The notes beneath the pieces are model-generated. The model had not been told where the DNA came from and did not search any database. It worked only from the letters and a program-made list of their open reading frames with translations. From positions 673,244 to 737,243 of the forward strand of contig NC_015681.1 of assembly GCF_000217795.1 (NCBI RefSeq): 64,000 bases of DNA, read 5' to 3'. The position numbers and the translations under genes were made by a program. This DNA comes from Thermodesulfatator indicus DSM 15286 (GTDB lineage Bacteria; Desulfobacterota; Thermodesulfobacteria; Thermodesulfobacteriales; Thermodesulfatatoraceae). Below, piece by piece: positions 21,263 through 28,234 of the stretch; within the stretch, counting starts at the first letter, position 1; every line of letters begins with the position of its first letter.

Positions 21263-21919
21263 TTACTTCTTATGCCGCAAACGATAAGCTAATAATGAAC
21301 CACCAGCCAAAGCCAGTAACAGGATGGATGAAGGTTCAGGAATTGGGTTAAGGCGGACAGCGTCAATATAAACCCATGATTGGATAATGTCGTCTCCTGT
21401 ATTTCCAGCATATATTGTAAGCGTTAGAGTATCAAAGGGATAATTTGTCAAGTCGTAAGTAAAAAGTTGCCAGCCGGTAAAATCAAGAGAAGTTTCATCT
21501 CCTGTAGTATCTATGTCTCCGGCATTGATAGAAAGAACTGGATTGCCATTAATCTGTATTTCAAAACCAGGCTCGTCCCACCCTGCAAAGTCCCAAGTGT
21601 AATAATTGTAATAAAGGCTTAAACTAGCCATTCCTGAAACGTTTATTATCTGCGAAATCCAGTTGTTAGTATAACCTTCTGTACCTCCTTCACCGGTAAA
21701 ATCATTTGTATCATCATCATTAAAATCTACTGTTCCTATCCAGGCAGCGTAAAGACCTTCAAAGACAACACTACTTTGAACTCCTGCCTGGCCACCAGCA
21801 GCCCATCCTGTTAAATCTCCTGTCTCAAAACTGCCATTAATTATGACTGCCTGGACCGATAAAGGTAACACCAAACATAATACCAAACCAAAAACTAACC
21901 CCAAAATACCCTTCTTCAT
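21263..21919 (-). CDS. PEP-CTERM sorting-domain exported protein
   Basis: A 218-residue protein with a signal peptide (MKKGILGLVFGLVLCLV...VQA) and a C-terminal PEP-CTERM tail: PIPEPSSILLLALAGG, then a hydrophobic stretch and a basic end RLRHKK. In other bacteria this tail is recognised by an exosortase, and such proteins are linked to exopolysaccharide or floc formation. The body begins INGSFETGDLTGW and contains many G, N, D and aromatic residues, resembling beta-sandwich carbohydrate-binding modules; DVN-type acidic loops could bind Ca2+. The start ATG at 21919 has a GGAGGGG ribosome-binding site. A sigma-54 promoter lies 44-59 bp upstream of the ATG. No exosortase gene is in the window. 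Confidence 0.88.
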   Translation of the reverse strand: MKKGILGLVFGLVLCLVLPLSVQAVIINGSFETGDLTGWAAGGQAGVQSSVVFEGLYAAWIGTVDFNDDDTNDFTGEGGTEGYTNNWISQIINVSGMASLSLYYNYYTWDFAGWDEPGFEIQINGNPVLSINAGDIDTTGDETSLDFTGWQLFTYDLTNYPFDTLTLTIYAGNTGDDIIQSWVYIDAVRLNPIPEPSSILLLALAGGSLLAYRLRHKK

Positions 21920-21962
21920 AACTTTAACCCCTCCTCTCTTCTTCTTTATTTTTCTCAAATCA

Positions 21963-21978
21963 AGCAAAATTAATGCCA
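21963..21978 (-). promoter_or_regulatory. sigma-54 (RpoN) promoter of the PEP-CTERM gene
   Basis: Minus strand TGGCATTAATTTTGCT matches the -24/-12 consensus TGGCAYRNNNNTTGCW at 12 or more of the fixed positions, with the correct spacing. The predicted start is near 21952, giving a leader of about 33 nt before the ATG at 21919. Confidence 0.75.
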
Positions 21979-23601: not shown

Positions 23602-24423
23602 TTATTGTTTCAACAGATCCTGCCACCAGGAAGGAATGGCAAATGAGGCCTGGTGCACCGCGGGGTTATAAAACTTGCCGTGATAAGACCTTCTGGGCTT
23701 ACAAGCAGAATCGGTTTTGCTTCCCAAGATAAAGGCAATTTCATCACCATAGCAGGGAACGGGGGCCCTGAGTATCTCTACCACAGGAAAGGCTTTTTGG
23801 GCCCGATGGTAGGCCATAGGTAAAGTTTCAGGAAAAAAACGAGGAATACTTGCCTGTTGAATAAAACAACCCTTTGGTTTTAAAACTCTGGCTATATTCT
23901 TGTAAAATTCTTCGGTATAAAGAACCACGGCCGGGCCAATTGGGTCTGTACAATCAACTATCACCAGGTCATAGGTTTCTGCCGGGGCTTCAGCAACAAA
24001 TTTAGCTCCATCTGCTATGCGAAACTCTACGCGAGGATCACTATAATCTCCAGCTATTTCTCGCAAATACTTTTGGCAGGCCTTAAATACTTCCTGGTCT
24101 ATTTCCAGTTGAAGAATAGACTTTATTTCTGAAATCTTTTGTAATTCGCGTATGACACCACCGTCTCCCCCACCGATAACAAGAACTTTTTCAGGTGGGG
24201 TTTCTAAAGAGGCCGCCGGGCAAAAGACAATAGTCTCGTGATAAATAAATTCGTCTTTTTCAGTAAATTGAGTTATCCCGTCAAGAACGAGGAAGCGCCC
24301 CCACAGCTCGTTTTTATAAATCAGCAAATGCTGATAAGGGGTGCGCTTCTCGTAAATGGGGATAACGTTATACCCGTGCGAATAATGCGGTGTGATTTTT
24401 TCGAACCACCAGTAGCGAGTCAA
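23602..24423 (-). CDS. speE: spermidine synthase (polyamine aminopropyltransferase)
   Basis: A 273-residue aminopropyltransferase. The decarboxylated-AdoMet site is VIGGGDGGVIRELQK (about residues 87-101), with LEIDQEVFKACQKYL. The catalytic region is DLVIVDCTDPIGPAVVLYTE, where the DCTDP motif replaces the usual DSTDP. Near the end, PVPCYGDEIAFILGSK fits the family's typical closing segment. The N-terminus (WWFEKITPHYSHGYNV) differs from E. coli but contains the expected QHLLIYKNELWGRFLVLDG strand pair. Overlaps speD-like by 4 nt, so the two are co-translated. The amine acceptor (putrescine, agmatine or longer) cannot be fixed by eye. Confidence 0.92.
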   Translation of the reverse strand: MTRYWWFEKITPHYSHGYNVIPIYEKRTPYQHLLIYKNELWGRFLVLDGITQFTEKDEFIYHETIVFCPAASLETPPEKVLVIGGGDGGVIRELQKISEIKSILQLEIDQEVFKACQKYLREIAGDYSDPRVEFRIADGAKFVAEAPAETYDLVIVDCTDPIGPAVVLYTEEFYKNIARVLKPKGCFIQQASIPRFFPETLPMAYHRAQKAFPVVEILRAPVPCYGDEIAFILGSKTDSACKPRRSYHGKFYNPAVHQASFAIPSWWQDLLKQ

Positions 24424-24854
24424 GTTTCCTCCATTTCAATAAGTTGTCCCCGTTTCATTTCCAGGGCGTGAACATAATGAGGCTTAAAGGCTTCCTTTAA
24501 ACGCTCAAAAATCTCGTAAGCCTCTTCATCACTTCCGGCAAAAATGTCAATGGCCGCGTAACCATTTTCCGGCCAGGTGTGAATAAAGATGTGCGCGTCT
24601 CCAAAAGTGGCTTTAGCTGAAACGCCATAAGGAGAAAACTGGTAGCTAATTACCTCTCCCTGTTCATCGTGGTAATCGCCGCTTCCGCCGTAACGCAATG
24701 CCTTTTCTACTACTTTGGCGTCAGCCAGCAAATTAAATGGAGACTGCCACATCTCAACCAAAAGATGCGTAGAAATAAAACCTGTTTCAGTGGCCTTTTG
24801 GGCCCCCTGGGCGGGAAACCTGTCAATCTGGCAAACTGTTGCTGGTGCCCGCAT
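24420..24854 (-). CDS. SpeD-like AdoMet decarboxylase homologue lacking the pyruvoyl serine
   Basis: A 144-residue protein clearly homologous to prokaryotic SpeD: STHLLVEMW near residue 28, YQFSPYGVSA, and IHTWPENGYAAIDIF. In active SpeD the proenzyme cuts itself at Glu-Ser in SESH, the Ser becoming the pyruvoyl cofactor. Here the same place reads GDAH (Asp86-Ala87); I re-read the codons GAC GCG CAC. The catalytic Cys (VFTCG in Thermotoga) is also gone (IFAGS, Gly107), while the His of HTWPE is kept. It therefore cannot form pyruvate the usual way. It is coupled to an intact speE. It may be a regulatory partner of another SpeD, a decayed enzyme, or a new activity. Confidence 0.85.
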   Translation of the reverse strand: MRAPATVCQIDRFPAQGAQKATETGFISTHLLVEMWQSPFNLLADAKVVEKALRYGGSGDYHDEQGEVISYQFSPYGVSAKATFGDAHIFIHTWPENGYAAIDIFAGSDEEAYEIFERLKEAFKPHYVHALEMKRGQLIEMEET

Positions 24855-24955: not shown

Positions 24956-25032
24956 TGGTCGGGACGGGCGGATTTGAACCGCCGACCCCCTACACCCCAA
25001 GCAGGTGCGCTGCCAGGCTGCGCCACGTCCCG
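24956..25032 (-). tRNA. tRNA-Pro (GGG)
   Basis: A full cloverleaf on the minus strand: acceptor CGGGACG/CGTCCCG, D stem GCGC/GCGC, anticodon stem CCTGC/GTAGG with loop TTGGGGT (anticodon GGG), T arm GGCGG-TTCAAAT-CCGCC. Discriminator A and an encoded CCA. Length 77 with CCA. Just upstream, CGTCCCG recurs once (25035-25042 region), a trivial duplication of the acceptor start. Confidence 0.95.
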
Positions 25033-25130: not shown

Positions 25131-27263
25131 TTATTCTTTATCTCGGCTCCCCAAAGGACTCTTAAGTAAAAAGCTCTCAGGTATAGTTGCTTTTTGCCAG
25201 AAATAAATTAACGCCCAAATAGCCATTCCTATAACAAAAGAAAGATACTCAGAGGGCATATCAAAATACCGATGGGCGAGATTGGGAACCAAGAAAAGGA
25301 AAGTAGCAAATAAAAAAAGAAGGCGCTGAATTATATTTAGTTTTTTCAATAGAAAACCCTGTACAGCAGATGAAAAACTCAACATTCCCATAAGGGCCAT
25401 ACCAAAAATAAAAGCTATTTTAAGTGGATTCTTGATGAACGTGACCTCGGTAAGATCCCAGCTATTTACTGAAGAAATTAATAGTAATTCCGTATTAAAG
25501 AAAAAGGCAAAAGGTAAAATGGCTGTTCTTATATCATAAGAAAAACCTTGGACACCAGTTTTTATAGGATTCGACTTAGCTATAGCGGAAGCAGCATAAG
25601 CAGCTATACCCACAGGAGGAGTGTCGTCAGCTAAAATTCCAAAATAAAATACAAAAAGATGAGCAGCTAATGCAGGAATAAGAAAACCATTGGCTTGAGC
25701 AAGTTGAAGAATAACAGGAGCTGCCAATGAAGATACTACAATATAATTTGCAGTAGTGGGAAGCCCCATTCCCAAAATCAAAGAAATAATAGCAGTAAGG
25801 AAAAGAATTATAAAAATATTTCCTTGAGAAATAGTATCAACCACATCTACAAGAACCTGGCCTATCCCTGTAATAGTAATACTTCCTACTACTATTCCTG
25901 CTATAGCTGTAGCCAGAGCAATTGGAATCATATTTCTGGCCCCAGTTACCATACCATGGTAAATATCTATGAATCCCTGTATAAAATCTCTTTTATTCAA
26001 AGGTTGTTTGGCAATTATCTTTTGAAAAATAGGCTGAATTATCATTAATACCATCATTACCCAGATAGCAGAAAAAGCAGACATTTGAGGAGATTGCCTT
26101 AAAATCATAAGTACATACAAAAGATAGACAACTGGAATAAAATAATGTAATCCACTAATGAATGTTTTTAGTTTAGGGGGCAATTTAGAAGGATCTTCTC
26201 CTCTCAAACCTAATTTCTTAGCTTCTAAGTGGACGATATAAAGAAGACCTATATAACTTACAATGGCAGGAATAGCCGCAGAGATAACAACGTCCATATA
26301 ACTTAAACCAAGAAATTCAGCTATAATAAAAGCAGCAGCACCCATCACTGGAGGCATAAGCTGTCCATTAGTAGAAGCGGCAACTTCTACAGCAGCGGCT
26401 TTTTCGGGAGGAAAGCCCGCCTTTTTCATAAGAGGGATAGTAAACACTCCCGTGGTTACTACATTAGCTGTAGAACTTCCACTAATAATACCGGTTAGGC
26501 CGCTGGCTACTACAGCAGCTTTAGCCGGGCCACCGACGTATCTACCTAATAAAGCGTAAGCAAGTTTGATAAAATATTCTCCAGCCCCCGCTCTCTCAAG
26601 TAGAGCTCCAAAGAGAACAAAAAGGAAAACAAAACTAGCGGAAACACCTAAAGGGACTCCAAAAATGCCTTCGGTGGTTAAATAAATTTGACCGATTAGC
26701 TTCTCTAATGGCACATTTTTATGAGCTATTAAGTCGGGAAGATGTTCACCCAATTTATCATAAAGCAAAAAGGCAATAGCAACTAAGCTAAGAGCAATTC
26801 CTATTGCTCTTCTGCCGGCTTCAAGTAAAATAACAATAAATATTATACCTATCGCAATGTCTCTTAAAAGATAATCTCCAGCTCTGTTGGCAAGACCTGT
26901 AAAATCAATAGCAATATAAGCAGCTCCAATCATTCCTATAATAGCTAAAAGATAGTCATACCAAAAAACTTTCTCTAAGTATTTCTGTTTTTTCTTAATA
27001 GGATAAATCAAAAAAGTAAGGAATATGGCAAAGGCCAGATGAACACTTCTTATAATAGTGGAATTAACTGGAAAATATGATACGTATAGCTGAAAAACTG
27101 ACCAACTAAAGGCAATAACAGATATGAGAGGGGCAAGAAAGGTATTTTCAAAAGTCCTTTGCCCCTCTAGCTCAATAAGAAGTCTTTCTTCTAAATCTTT
27201 GTCTATGTGGAGCGAGGCGCTTTGCTTTTCGGCCTCCTCCACATCTTTCCTTAAATCAGTCAT
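25131..27263 (-). CDS. TRAP transporter fused permease (TAXI type)
   Basis: A 710-residue protein with about 16-18 membrane helices, a fusion of small and large TRAP permease subunits as seen with TAXI binding proteins. Key segments: GALLERAGAGEYFIKLAYAL, GPAKAAVVASGLTGIISGSS with the following TANVVTTGVFTIPLMKKAGF, and AAVEVAASTNGQLMPPVMGA. The second half has ILGMGLPTTANYIVVSSLAA and LADDTPPVGIAAYAASAIA, the paired membrane signature motifs of DctM-type subunits. It imports small organic solutes using an ion gradient. The start overlaps the binding-protein stop (TAATG). Substrate unknown. Confidence 0.93.
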   Translation of the reverse strand: MTDLRKDVEEAEKQSASLHIDKDLEERLLIELEGQRTFENTFLAPLISVIAFSWSVFQLYVSYFPVNSTIIRSVHLAFAIFLTFLIYPIKKKQKYLEKVFWYDYLLAIIGMIGAAYIAIDFTGLANRAGDYLLRDIAIGIIFIVILLEAGRRAIGIALSLVAIAFLLYDKLGEHLPDLIAHKNVPLEKLIGQIYLTTEGIFGVPLGVSASFVFLFVLFGALLERAGAGEYFIKLAYALLGRYVGGPAKAAVVASGLTGIISGSSTANVVTTGVFTIPLMKKAGFPPEKAAAVEVAASTNGQLMPPVMGAAAFIIAEFLGLSYMDVVISAAIPAIVSYIGLLYIVHLEAKKLGLRGEDPSKLPPKLKTFISGLHYFIPVVYLLYVLMILRQSPQMSAFSAIWVMMVLMIIQPIFQKIIAKQPLNKRDFIQGFIDIYHGMVTGARNMIPIALATAIAGIVVGSITITGIGQVLVDVVDTISQGNIFIILFLTAIISLILGMGLPTTANYIVVSSLAAPVILQLAQANGFLIPALAAHLFVFYFGILADDTPPVGIAAYAASAIAKSNPIKTGVQGFSYDIRTAILPFAFFFNTELLLISSVNSWDLTEVTFIKNPLKIAFIFGMALMGMLSFSSAVQGFLLKKLNIIQRLLFLFATFLFLVPNLAHRYFDMPSEYLSFVIGMAIWALIYFWQKATIPESFLLKSPLGSRDKE

Positions 27264-28234
27264 TACAGAAGCCCTGCCTCCTTAAACGCTTTTACAGCAC
27301 CAGGATGCATCATACTTTTATCAAAACCTTTAAGAAGGTCTTTTTTGGTAAGATGTTTGTATGCAGGATGCATTTTTTTGAAGGTATCAAAATTATCAAG
27401 AATTACTTTGACCATATTGTAAACAATCTTAGGATCCATCTTATCACTAGTCACAAGAATTGCTTTTACTCCAAAAGTATTAGTAGGATGATTTACACCC
27501 CTATACATTTTGGCAGGAATTGTTCCCCAAGCATAATATGGTTTATCTTCGACTAGTTTTTTAATACAAGGGACATTATCTAAATTAATCAAATCAATAT
27601 CAACTGAGTTAGCCGCGTCTTTAATATTGGCTGTGGGATGGCCTACCATATAAAAATAACCTTCTATTTTTCTATCTTTTAATGCATTAGGACATTCGCT
27701 TGCTTTCAAATATTCTGGTGTGATATCTTTGAGACTTACTACGTTTTTACAATATTCAAAAATAGCTCTTGAGGTAGCTTCTTGGCCGCTACCAGGATTC
27801 CCTATATTAATAGTTTTACCTTTAAGATCATAAAAACTTTTTATTCCGCTATCTTTTCTTACAACTAAAGTCATAAGTTCAGGATGAATAGACATTACCA
27901 CTCTTAAATTTTTGATAGGCTTACCTTTAAAACGGCCGGTACCAGTAAATGCCTGATAGACAACATCACTTTGAGCAATACCAAAATCAAGTTCTCCTTT
28001 TTTAATCATATTTACGTTATATACGCTTCCACCAGTAGATTCCACAGTGCATCTCACACCGGTAATCTTTCTCTCTTTGTTCATTAAACGACAAATAGCG
28101 CCACCAGTAGGATAATAAACACCTGTTACACTTCCTGTACCAATTGTTATAAACTTTTGAGCACTGGAAACTACTGGAAAACATAAAACAAGAGTTATTA
28201 AAGCTAAAACAGCACTCCATCCTTTCACGTTCAT
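27263..28234 (-). CDS. TAXI family TRAP transporter solute-binding protein
   Basis: A 323-residue exported protein with a signal peptide (MNVKGWSAVLALITLVLCFP...SSAQ). It has the TAXI start ITIGTGSVTGVYYPTGGAIC, then VESTGGSVYNVNMIKKGELD and FGIAQSDVVYQAFTG. Then SGIKSFYDLKGKTINIGNPG follows. Periplasmic receptor feeding the downstream permease, with which it overlaps. C(4) dicarboxylates or amino acids are typical TAXI ligands, but the ligand here cannot be told. An AGGAGG ribosome-binding site precedes the ATG. Confidence 0.93.
   Translation of the reverse strand: MNVKGWSAVLALITLVLCFPVVSSAQKFITIGTGSVTGVYYPTGGAICRLMNKERKITGVRCTVESTGGSVYNVNMIKKGELDFGIAQSDVVYQAFTGTGRFKGKPIKNLRVVMSIHPELMTLVVRKDSGIKSFYDLKGKTINIGNPGSGQEATSRAIFEYCKNVVSLKDITPEYLKASECPNALKDRKIEGYFYMVGHPTANIKDAANSVDIDLINLDNVPCIKKLVEDKPYYAWGTIPAKMYRGVNHPTNTFGVKAILVTSDKMDPKIVYNMVKVILDNFDTFKKMHPAYKHLTKKDLLKGFDKSMMHPGAVKAFKEAGLL

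Follow-up and report, generated by a model that had tools for sequence, protein, structure and literature searches.

A SpeD homologue lacking the pyruvoyl serine and the catalytic cysteine: a probable non-catalytic partner of a second SpeD in Thermodesulfatator indicus and its relatives

Eukaryotic AdoMet decarboxylase is a sandwich of two halves with different residues: the pyruvoyl serine and the cysteine that donates a proton work in the first, and strand 12 of the second carries the histidine for processing and the glutamate that binds ribose; the prokaryotic protein is described as the union of both halves, two identical molecules of which form the sandwich (PMC1282579). In trypanosomatids, where the enzyme is of the two-domain class 2, an AdoMet decarboxylase prozyme is described that activates by relief of autoinhibition (PMC5201418). 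In bacteria, SpeD-degraded SpeDC fusions such as those of Victivallis vadensis and Desulfobacter latus have lost critical active-site residues and are kept along with an active SpeD; they are fused and, according to the authors, derived from an ornithine decarboxylase domain (Li et al., PMC10407285). The same work gives genomic criteria for SpeD-derived arginine decarboxylases (SpeDA): location beside speB or aguA/aguB, occurrence without SpeE and absence of SpeA. A literature search that covered a minority of subscription papers turned up work on the trypanosome prozyme and, by Li et al., on the fusions, but no stand-alone bacterial SpeD pseudoenzyme; this does not prove absence.

The gene considered here, speD2, lies in a window of 64,000 nucleotides (the whole stretch that was analysed; NC_015681.1, positions 673,244 to 737,243) from Thermodesulfatator indicus DSM 15286 (Table 1). 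Its open reading frame starts with ATG. The product aligns with PF02675 over positions 1-107 of 107 (87.7 bits), as a full-length SpeD, and matches T. maritima SpeD with E 5e-19; by sequence profile and fold it is a class 1b SpeD. It also scores 77 bits with TIGR03330, above the model cut-off of 75.65, and thus automatic annotation would label it an active adenosylmethionine decarboxylase. This is a warning that the model passes a protein without the pyruvoyl serine.

The preliminary description of this locus stated that the pyruvoyl serine and the catalytic cysteine had been replaced and that the gene overlaps speE by 4 nt. All of this is correct. In the alignment with T. maritima SpeD, whose numbering is used below for conserved positions, Ser63 is replaced by Ala87 (codon GCG) and Cys83 by Gly107, so that two of the features that define class 1b SpeDs are missing. 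The position of Glu62 is occupied by Asp86, which the preliminary description had not noted. The other defining residues, S55, H68 and E72, are present as Ser79, His92 and Glu96. Phe73, Pro75 and Trp94, the counterparts of F49, P51 and W70, belong to the same kept stretch, and Ala87 is inside it. Judging from the T. maritima and human structures, F49, S55 and W70 are residues that we take to be lent to the partner molecule. The S63A non-processing mutant of T. maritima SpeD (1tmi) is the laboratory counterpart of Ala87.

Table 1. Coordinates of the speD2 locus in the window and of the second SpeD gene in the genome (G000:C1).
Feature	Location	Strand	Evidence
speD2 (144 aa), SpeD homologue lacking the pyruvoyl serine and the catalytic cysteine	24420..24854	minus	ORF, profiles, fold
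Ala87 codon, at the position of pyruvoyl Ser63	24594..24596	minus	alignment to T. maritima SpeD
Gly107 codon, at the position of catalytic Cys83	24534..24536	minus	alignment to T. maritima SpeD
Stretch with kept partner-side residues Phe73, Pro75, Ser79, His92, Trp94, Glu96	24567..24638	minus	53/53 unique SpeD2
GGAGG, ribosome-binding site of speE, within the last speD2 codons	24428..24432	minus	sequence
speE, aminopropyltransferase, 273 aa	23602..24423	minus	PF01564 157.7 bits; NF002010 271.4 bits, cut-off 260
SpeD1, complete second SpeD	G000:C1:1947455-1947790		PF02675 profile search of genome

The structural model of SpeD2 (model A4, pLDDT 79) superseded a single-sequence AlphaFold model with pLDDT 53. 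Its best match is T. maritima SpeD (1vr7; Z 13.8, rmsd 3.0, 110 aligned), followed by the N-terminal domain of human spermine synthase (Z 9.9, rmsd 2.2, 95 aligned). It also matches the C-terminal, non-pyruvoyl half of human AdoMet decarboxylase (about 155-320) with Z about 8, including the unprocessed structures 1jl0 and 1msv, a match that is consistent with a substrate-side role but weak, since any prokaryotic SpeD may align there.

SpeD2 is found in six of the eight genomes of the genus and in 37 of 41 genomes of the class, with two copies in one genome (the class set is identical to the order set). In a phylum-wide sample of 395 genomes, 33 carry it: 17 members of the class and 16 genomes spread over eight other family-level groups. 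All SpeD2 proteins form one clade with 100/100 support; the tally given here covers 53 unique sequences from 11 family-level groups of one phylum. On the lost side, Cys83 is kept in none of the 53, Ser63 in seven and E62 in three; one protein (L041) has both E62 and S63. On the other side F49, P51, S55, H68, W70, P71 and E72 are all kept in 53/53. Indeed, the partner-side columns have zero entropy; among all 108, none varies more than column 62, and column 83 is in 104th place. The tree requires 24 changes of residue 62 and 22 of residue 83, compared with four changes between the serine and non-serine states. Thus only one side of the active site has been freed from constraint.

Recent decay of an ordinary speD, or a sequencing error, would be suggested by the close relative G003, which has serine (codon TCT) where the other five genus members with SpeD2 have alanine. 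The preliminary description had named serine in relatives as evidence for this reading, and serine does occur, in G003 and in 7/53 unique sequences. However, the missing cysteine in 53/53 rules out a local error, and GCG and TCT differ by two bases. The gene is kept in 37/41 genomes of the class and in 16 genomes outside it, and dN/dS between T. indicus and G003 is 0.039 (0.054 for speE), which points to purifying selection on speD2. Decay or error was therefore rejected and retains almost no probability.

The genome of T. indicus (2.32 Mb, one contig) contains two PF02675 genes over the cut-off, the second of which, SpeD1, is complete: E62, S63, H64, S55, H68, E72 and C83 are all present, with Tyr for F49 and Phe for W70. 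It is 100% identical to SpeD1 of Thermodesulfatator autotrophicus S606. The gene is flanked by those of a PuuR-like regulator and of agmatinase (TIGR01230 242 bits, cut-off 174). The speB gene is directly downstream at 133 of 155 SpeD1 loci, where some loci repeat one gene and several of the misses are short stretches. The preliminary description had proposed a search for a second, canonical SpeD. A complete one has thus been found; however, the word canonical is doubtful, as this SpeD occurs elsewhere without spermidine synthase and beside agmatinase.

In the phylum sample SpeD1, scored as a match of more than 200 bits to its own profile, is present in 33/33 genomes with SpeD2 (17 in the class, 16 outside). 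In the full class set it accompanies SpeD2 in 34 of 37 genomes; the exceptions are G008, G024 and G039, which are 76, 70 and 90% complete. Among genomes with other, mostly complete SpeDs, SpeD1 is missing in 70 of 93. The genus member G007 (96% complete) and G036 have SpeD1 without SpeD2, and G006 and G027 have no SpeD at all. The extra weak SpeD matches of G024, G029 and G038 are of neither type.

Of the 61 genomes with SpeD1 that lie outside the class, 16 also have SpeD2, 23 another SpeD and 22 neither. A stand-alone SpeE, scored as a PF01564 match above 100 bits in a frame shorter than 400 aa or, in G165, as the 659-aa open frame beside SpeD2, is encoded in 15/16, 22/23 and 1/22 of them, respectively. 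Fisher p values for the co-occurrence tally are 6e-9 and 4e-13, with relatedness ignored. The second SpeD of the f9 and f53 genomes (L232, L233, L235), a SpeDC candidate with S55T and E62Q, was counted as another SpeD, and G057 and G113 were counted among the 22. In G113 a further SpeD-like protein (L333:3885-4253 (+)) has S63 and C83 and lacks S55, W70, P71 and E72; its neighbourhood showed no polyamine gene. SpeD1 is alone in G306, yet SpeE is present.

The half-site division of PMC1282579 suggests that the residues kept by SpeD2 are those lent to the neighbour and that the residues lost are those for its own use. In class 1b SpeD two protomers stand face to face and share each site, formed by the pyruvoyl side (E62, S63, C83) of one protomer and by S55, H68, E72, F49 and W70 of the other. 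SpeD2 would have abandoned its own pyruvoyl side while preserving the side that it lends. The pyruvoyl side would come from SpeD1, whose gene is elsewhere, with that of agmatinase, so that the pair would hold one complete site, like the fused eukaryotic enzyme. It would make decarboxylated AdoMet for the speE product translated along with SpeD2. We thus consider SpeD2 to be the non-catalytic, substrate-side subunit of a heterodimeric AdoMet decarboxylase in which SpeD1 is the pyruvoyl half, with a probability of about 0.7. The complex, and the activity and substrate of each form, are predicted from the sequence pattern, conservation, co-occurrence and gene order. Retention of S55 and H68 points to a partner, as both act in processing and catalysis and SpeD2 mostly cannot process itself. 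Some SpeD2 proteins might still do so, as seven have Ser63 and L041 has E62 as well. Ser63 is also retained by L053, the SpeD2 of T. thermophilum, a species that accumulates spermine/thermospermine (PMC11107197).

One possibility is that SpeD2 forms a homodimer that senses or carries AdoMet and does not decarboxylate it. F49, W70 and E72 of the AdoMet-binding side are indeed invariant. However, the base-contacting Glu62 is the most variable column, S55 and H68 are unnecessary for binding alone, and the constant company of SpeD1 is left unexplained. This reading is highly improbable.

Another possibility is that SpeD1 is itself an AdoMet decarboxylase and SpeD2, lending no residues, regulates it allosterically in the manner of the trypanosome prozyme. 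A dead paralogue alongside an intact one is what is observed, SpeD1 keeps S55, H68 and C83, and the trypanosome precedent is described as proven (PMC5201418). On the other hand, that prozyme is described as having lost its ligand-binding residues, whereas SpeD2 keeps the partner-side residues throughout, and in the 22 genomes where SpeD1 has no other SpeD a stand-alone SpeE is found once. We therefore hold pure allosteric activation to be unlikely. The preliminary description had suggested a regulatory partner of a second SpeD, comparable to the prozyme; the dead but conserved protein and the intact SpeD1 agree with this, but half-site donation fits better than pure regulation.

The substrate of SpeD1 is a separate matter. 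It agrees with the SpeDA genomic criteria of Li et al. (PMC10407285), being beside speB and occurring without SpeE, and no SpeA was found in the T. indicus genome; by these criteria SpeD1 alone is probably an arginine decarboxylase. SpeD2 cannot be a SpeDA of the type described there, as it lacks the pyruvoyl serine. No biosynthetic arginine decarboxylase was found in the T. indicus genome itself, whose two PF02784 matches are lysA and an FslC-like protein. In the 41 genomes of the class PF01862 proteins are absent (0/41) and no PF01276 match exceeds the cut-off. The FslC/LysA-like PLP decarboxylase (G000:C1:143402-144133; L084:1072-3482), which adjoins an ATP-grasp-like protein, could be an unrecognised amino-acid decarboxylase.

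The rarity of SpeE in the genomes with SpeD1 alone indicates that the SpeD1 type is not generally tied to the use of decarboxylated AdoMet. Where SpeD2 is its sole companion, only the pair would be left to make this compound. The genome of T. indicus has two aminopropyltransferases. However, SpeD1 alone might decarboxylate AdoMet in the class of the window, as E72 is kept there in 35/35 SpeD1 sequences; it is kept in 8/16 other genomes with SpeD2 and in 16/20 without it. Relaxation of E72 was considered as a general proof that SpeD1 cannot bind AdoMet, and these counts weaken it. They come from profile-chosen SpeD1 sequences, read for 36 of the 61 out-of-class genomes (16 with SpeD2, 20 without). 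A first tally had been selected on H68, C83 and K84, which made its counts for positions 68 and 83 meaningless. The 80 named loci were found with peptides spanning S63 and H68 and are thus biased. The canonical-like group excludes loci L048, L072, L298, L299, L301, L302, L304, L305 and L308, as well as the SpeD1 rows with R84 (L036, L136). The "Pro gamma" feature of Li et al. was dropped as a test of the SpeD1 substrate, since a two-residue insert makes the position alignment-dependent, and phages provided no usable reference as a source of validated SpeDA or SpeDC sequences.

A more tentative proposal, to which we give somewhat less than even odds, is that the SpeD1 homodimer decarboxylates arginine, and that SpeD2 in place of one protomer turns it into an AdoMet decarboxylase for spermidine synthesis. 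The product of the homodimer would feed the agmatinase of the SpeD1 operon, and two pathway steps would share a single catalytic chain. The choice of substrate by a pseudoenzyme would then become testable with two small proteins.

The stop codon of speD2 overlaps the TTG start of speE. The 3' end of the gene is GGAGGAAACTTGA, with the Shine-Dalgarno sequence of speE in the final codons, and a G-rich, Shine-Dalgarno-like stretch is seen in 51 of 54 SpeD2 genes. An overlapping speE follows at 49 of 53 other SpeD2 loci. These observations, and the spermine synthase domain as the second-best fold match (Z 9.9 as against 13.8 for T. maritima SpeD), could mean that SpeD2 is a docking module, a structural partner of the aminopropyltransferase. 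The N-terminal domain of human spermine synthase has a role in dimerisation. However, an overlap with speE is also found for intact speD genes (L201, L202 and L206, for example), so that this arrangement may be an inherited one. Docking has no need of S55 and H68, which serve in processing. In L111, L197, L198 and L199 speE is not directly behind speD2, and the partner-side residues are still kept. SpeE docking thus seems quite improbable. G191 has SpeD2 and no PF01564 match at all, and no fusion of SpeD2 was seen among the SpeD2 loci read. In other classes speD2 or speE is followed by a gene of the SAM_HAT AdoMet hydrolase type (PF01887), identified by a profile scan at L111:663-1451 (-) and by eye at L197:906-1694 (-) and L105:2-631 (-). 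In the window, a tRNA-Pro (ggg) gene is directly upstream of speD2 (24956-25032 (-)). Inspection by eye also showed a fused TRAP-type transporter permease and a TAXI-like binding protein with a one-base overlap (25131-28234 (-)), and a secreted protein (21263-21967 (-)) ending in a PEP-CTERM-like tail, PEPSSILLLALAGGSLLAYRLRHKK.

A second lineage of paired SpeDs shows reciprocal losses. In G112 (L301/L321) and G144 (L302/L322) the first SpeD has E62, S63 and C83 intact, with S55 replaced by Phe, H68 by Ser, W70 by Asn, P71 by Ile and E72 by Thr. The second (L215/L324 in G112, L211/L325 in G144) has S55, H68, W70, P71 and E72 intact and C83 replaced by Ser. G172 (L303, L312) is intermediate: its first SpeD keeps only H68 of S55, H68, W70, P71 and E72, and its second is complete. 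G077 has two complete SpeDs; in the first, F49 is replaced by Cys and W70 by Phe. These genomes are from family group f40, probably Desulfofervidaceae, as SpeD1 of G077 shares an unusual YSG motif with the named locus L185. In another group (f73), G198 has E72K in one SpeD and E62S with C83T in the other.

Since a homodimer of the first protein of the G112 type cannot build the site, the two proteins must cooperate if the known mechanism holds. In G112 and G144, judging from the residues, only a heterodimer would have a full site, and this reciprocal pair is the strongest support for heterodimers that the sequences of the phylum offer. The second proteins of this lineage and SpeD2 fall in different clades; the trees show the two cases as separate for these second proteins only. 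The neighbours of the first, SpeD1-type gene of G112, G144 and G172 are speE and a PLP-decarboxylase-like gene, and not speB; of these PLP-decarboxylase-like genes, that of G112 was profile-scanned (PF02784, 198 bits). The second protein of G112 adjoins a branched-chain polyamine synthase (BpsA; PF01861, 277 bits). On the tentative proposal of a change of substrate, these three genomes would be cases in which the arginine role has apparently been taken over, and SpeD1 would then lose its own substrate side.

Polyamine synthesis in trypanosomatids is known to involve dead enzyme partners, and SpeD2, if the heterodimer is real, would be a bacterial case made of half-units. Its likeness to the trypanosomatid prozyme (PMC5201418) consists of a dead paralogue, an intact one in the same genome and a heterodimer, which for SpeD2 is a proposal. 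However, SpeD2 is a class 1b half-unit of 144 aa that keeps all partner-side residues, and the class 2 architecture is not found in it. With the SpeDC fusions, as they are described in PMC10407285, it shares the loss of critical residues and the retention alongside an active SpeD; unlike them, it is a stand-alone gene, is coupled to speE and occurs order-wide and in other classes. The N-terminal domain of human spermine synthase (3c6k) is likewise a SpeD fold tied to an aminopropyltransferase, but there the two are fused. If the present reading is true, the two separate genes display a presumed step towards the fused eukaryotic AdoMet decarboxylase, with one pyruvoyl half and one substrate half. 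Set beside the work of Li et al., as far as it covers this question, an unfused and already specialised pair would be an alternative intermediate. Indeed, the C-terminal, scaffold half of the eukaryotic class 2 enzyme is described as having lost the cleavage site and the cysteine and kept the histidine and the ribose-binding glutamate (PMC1282579). This is the pattern of SpeD2, although in eukaryotes both halves are one fused chain, whereas SpeD1 and SpeD2 are encoded by two separate genes.
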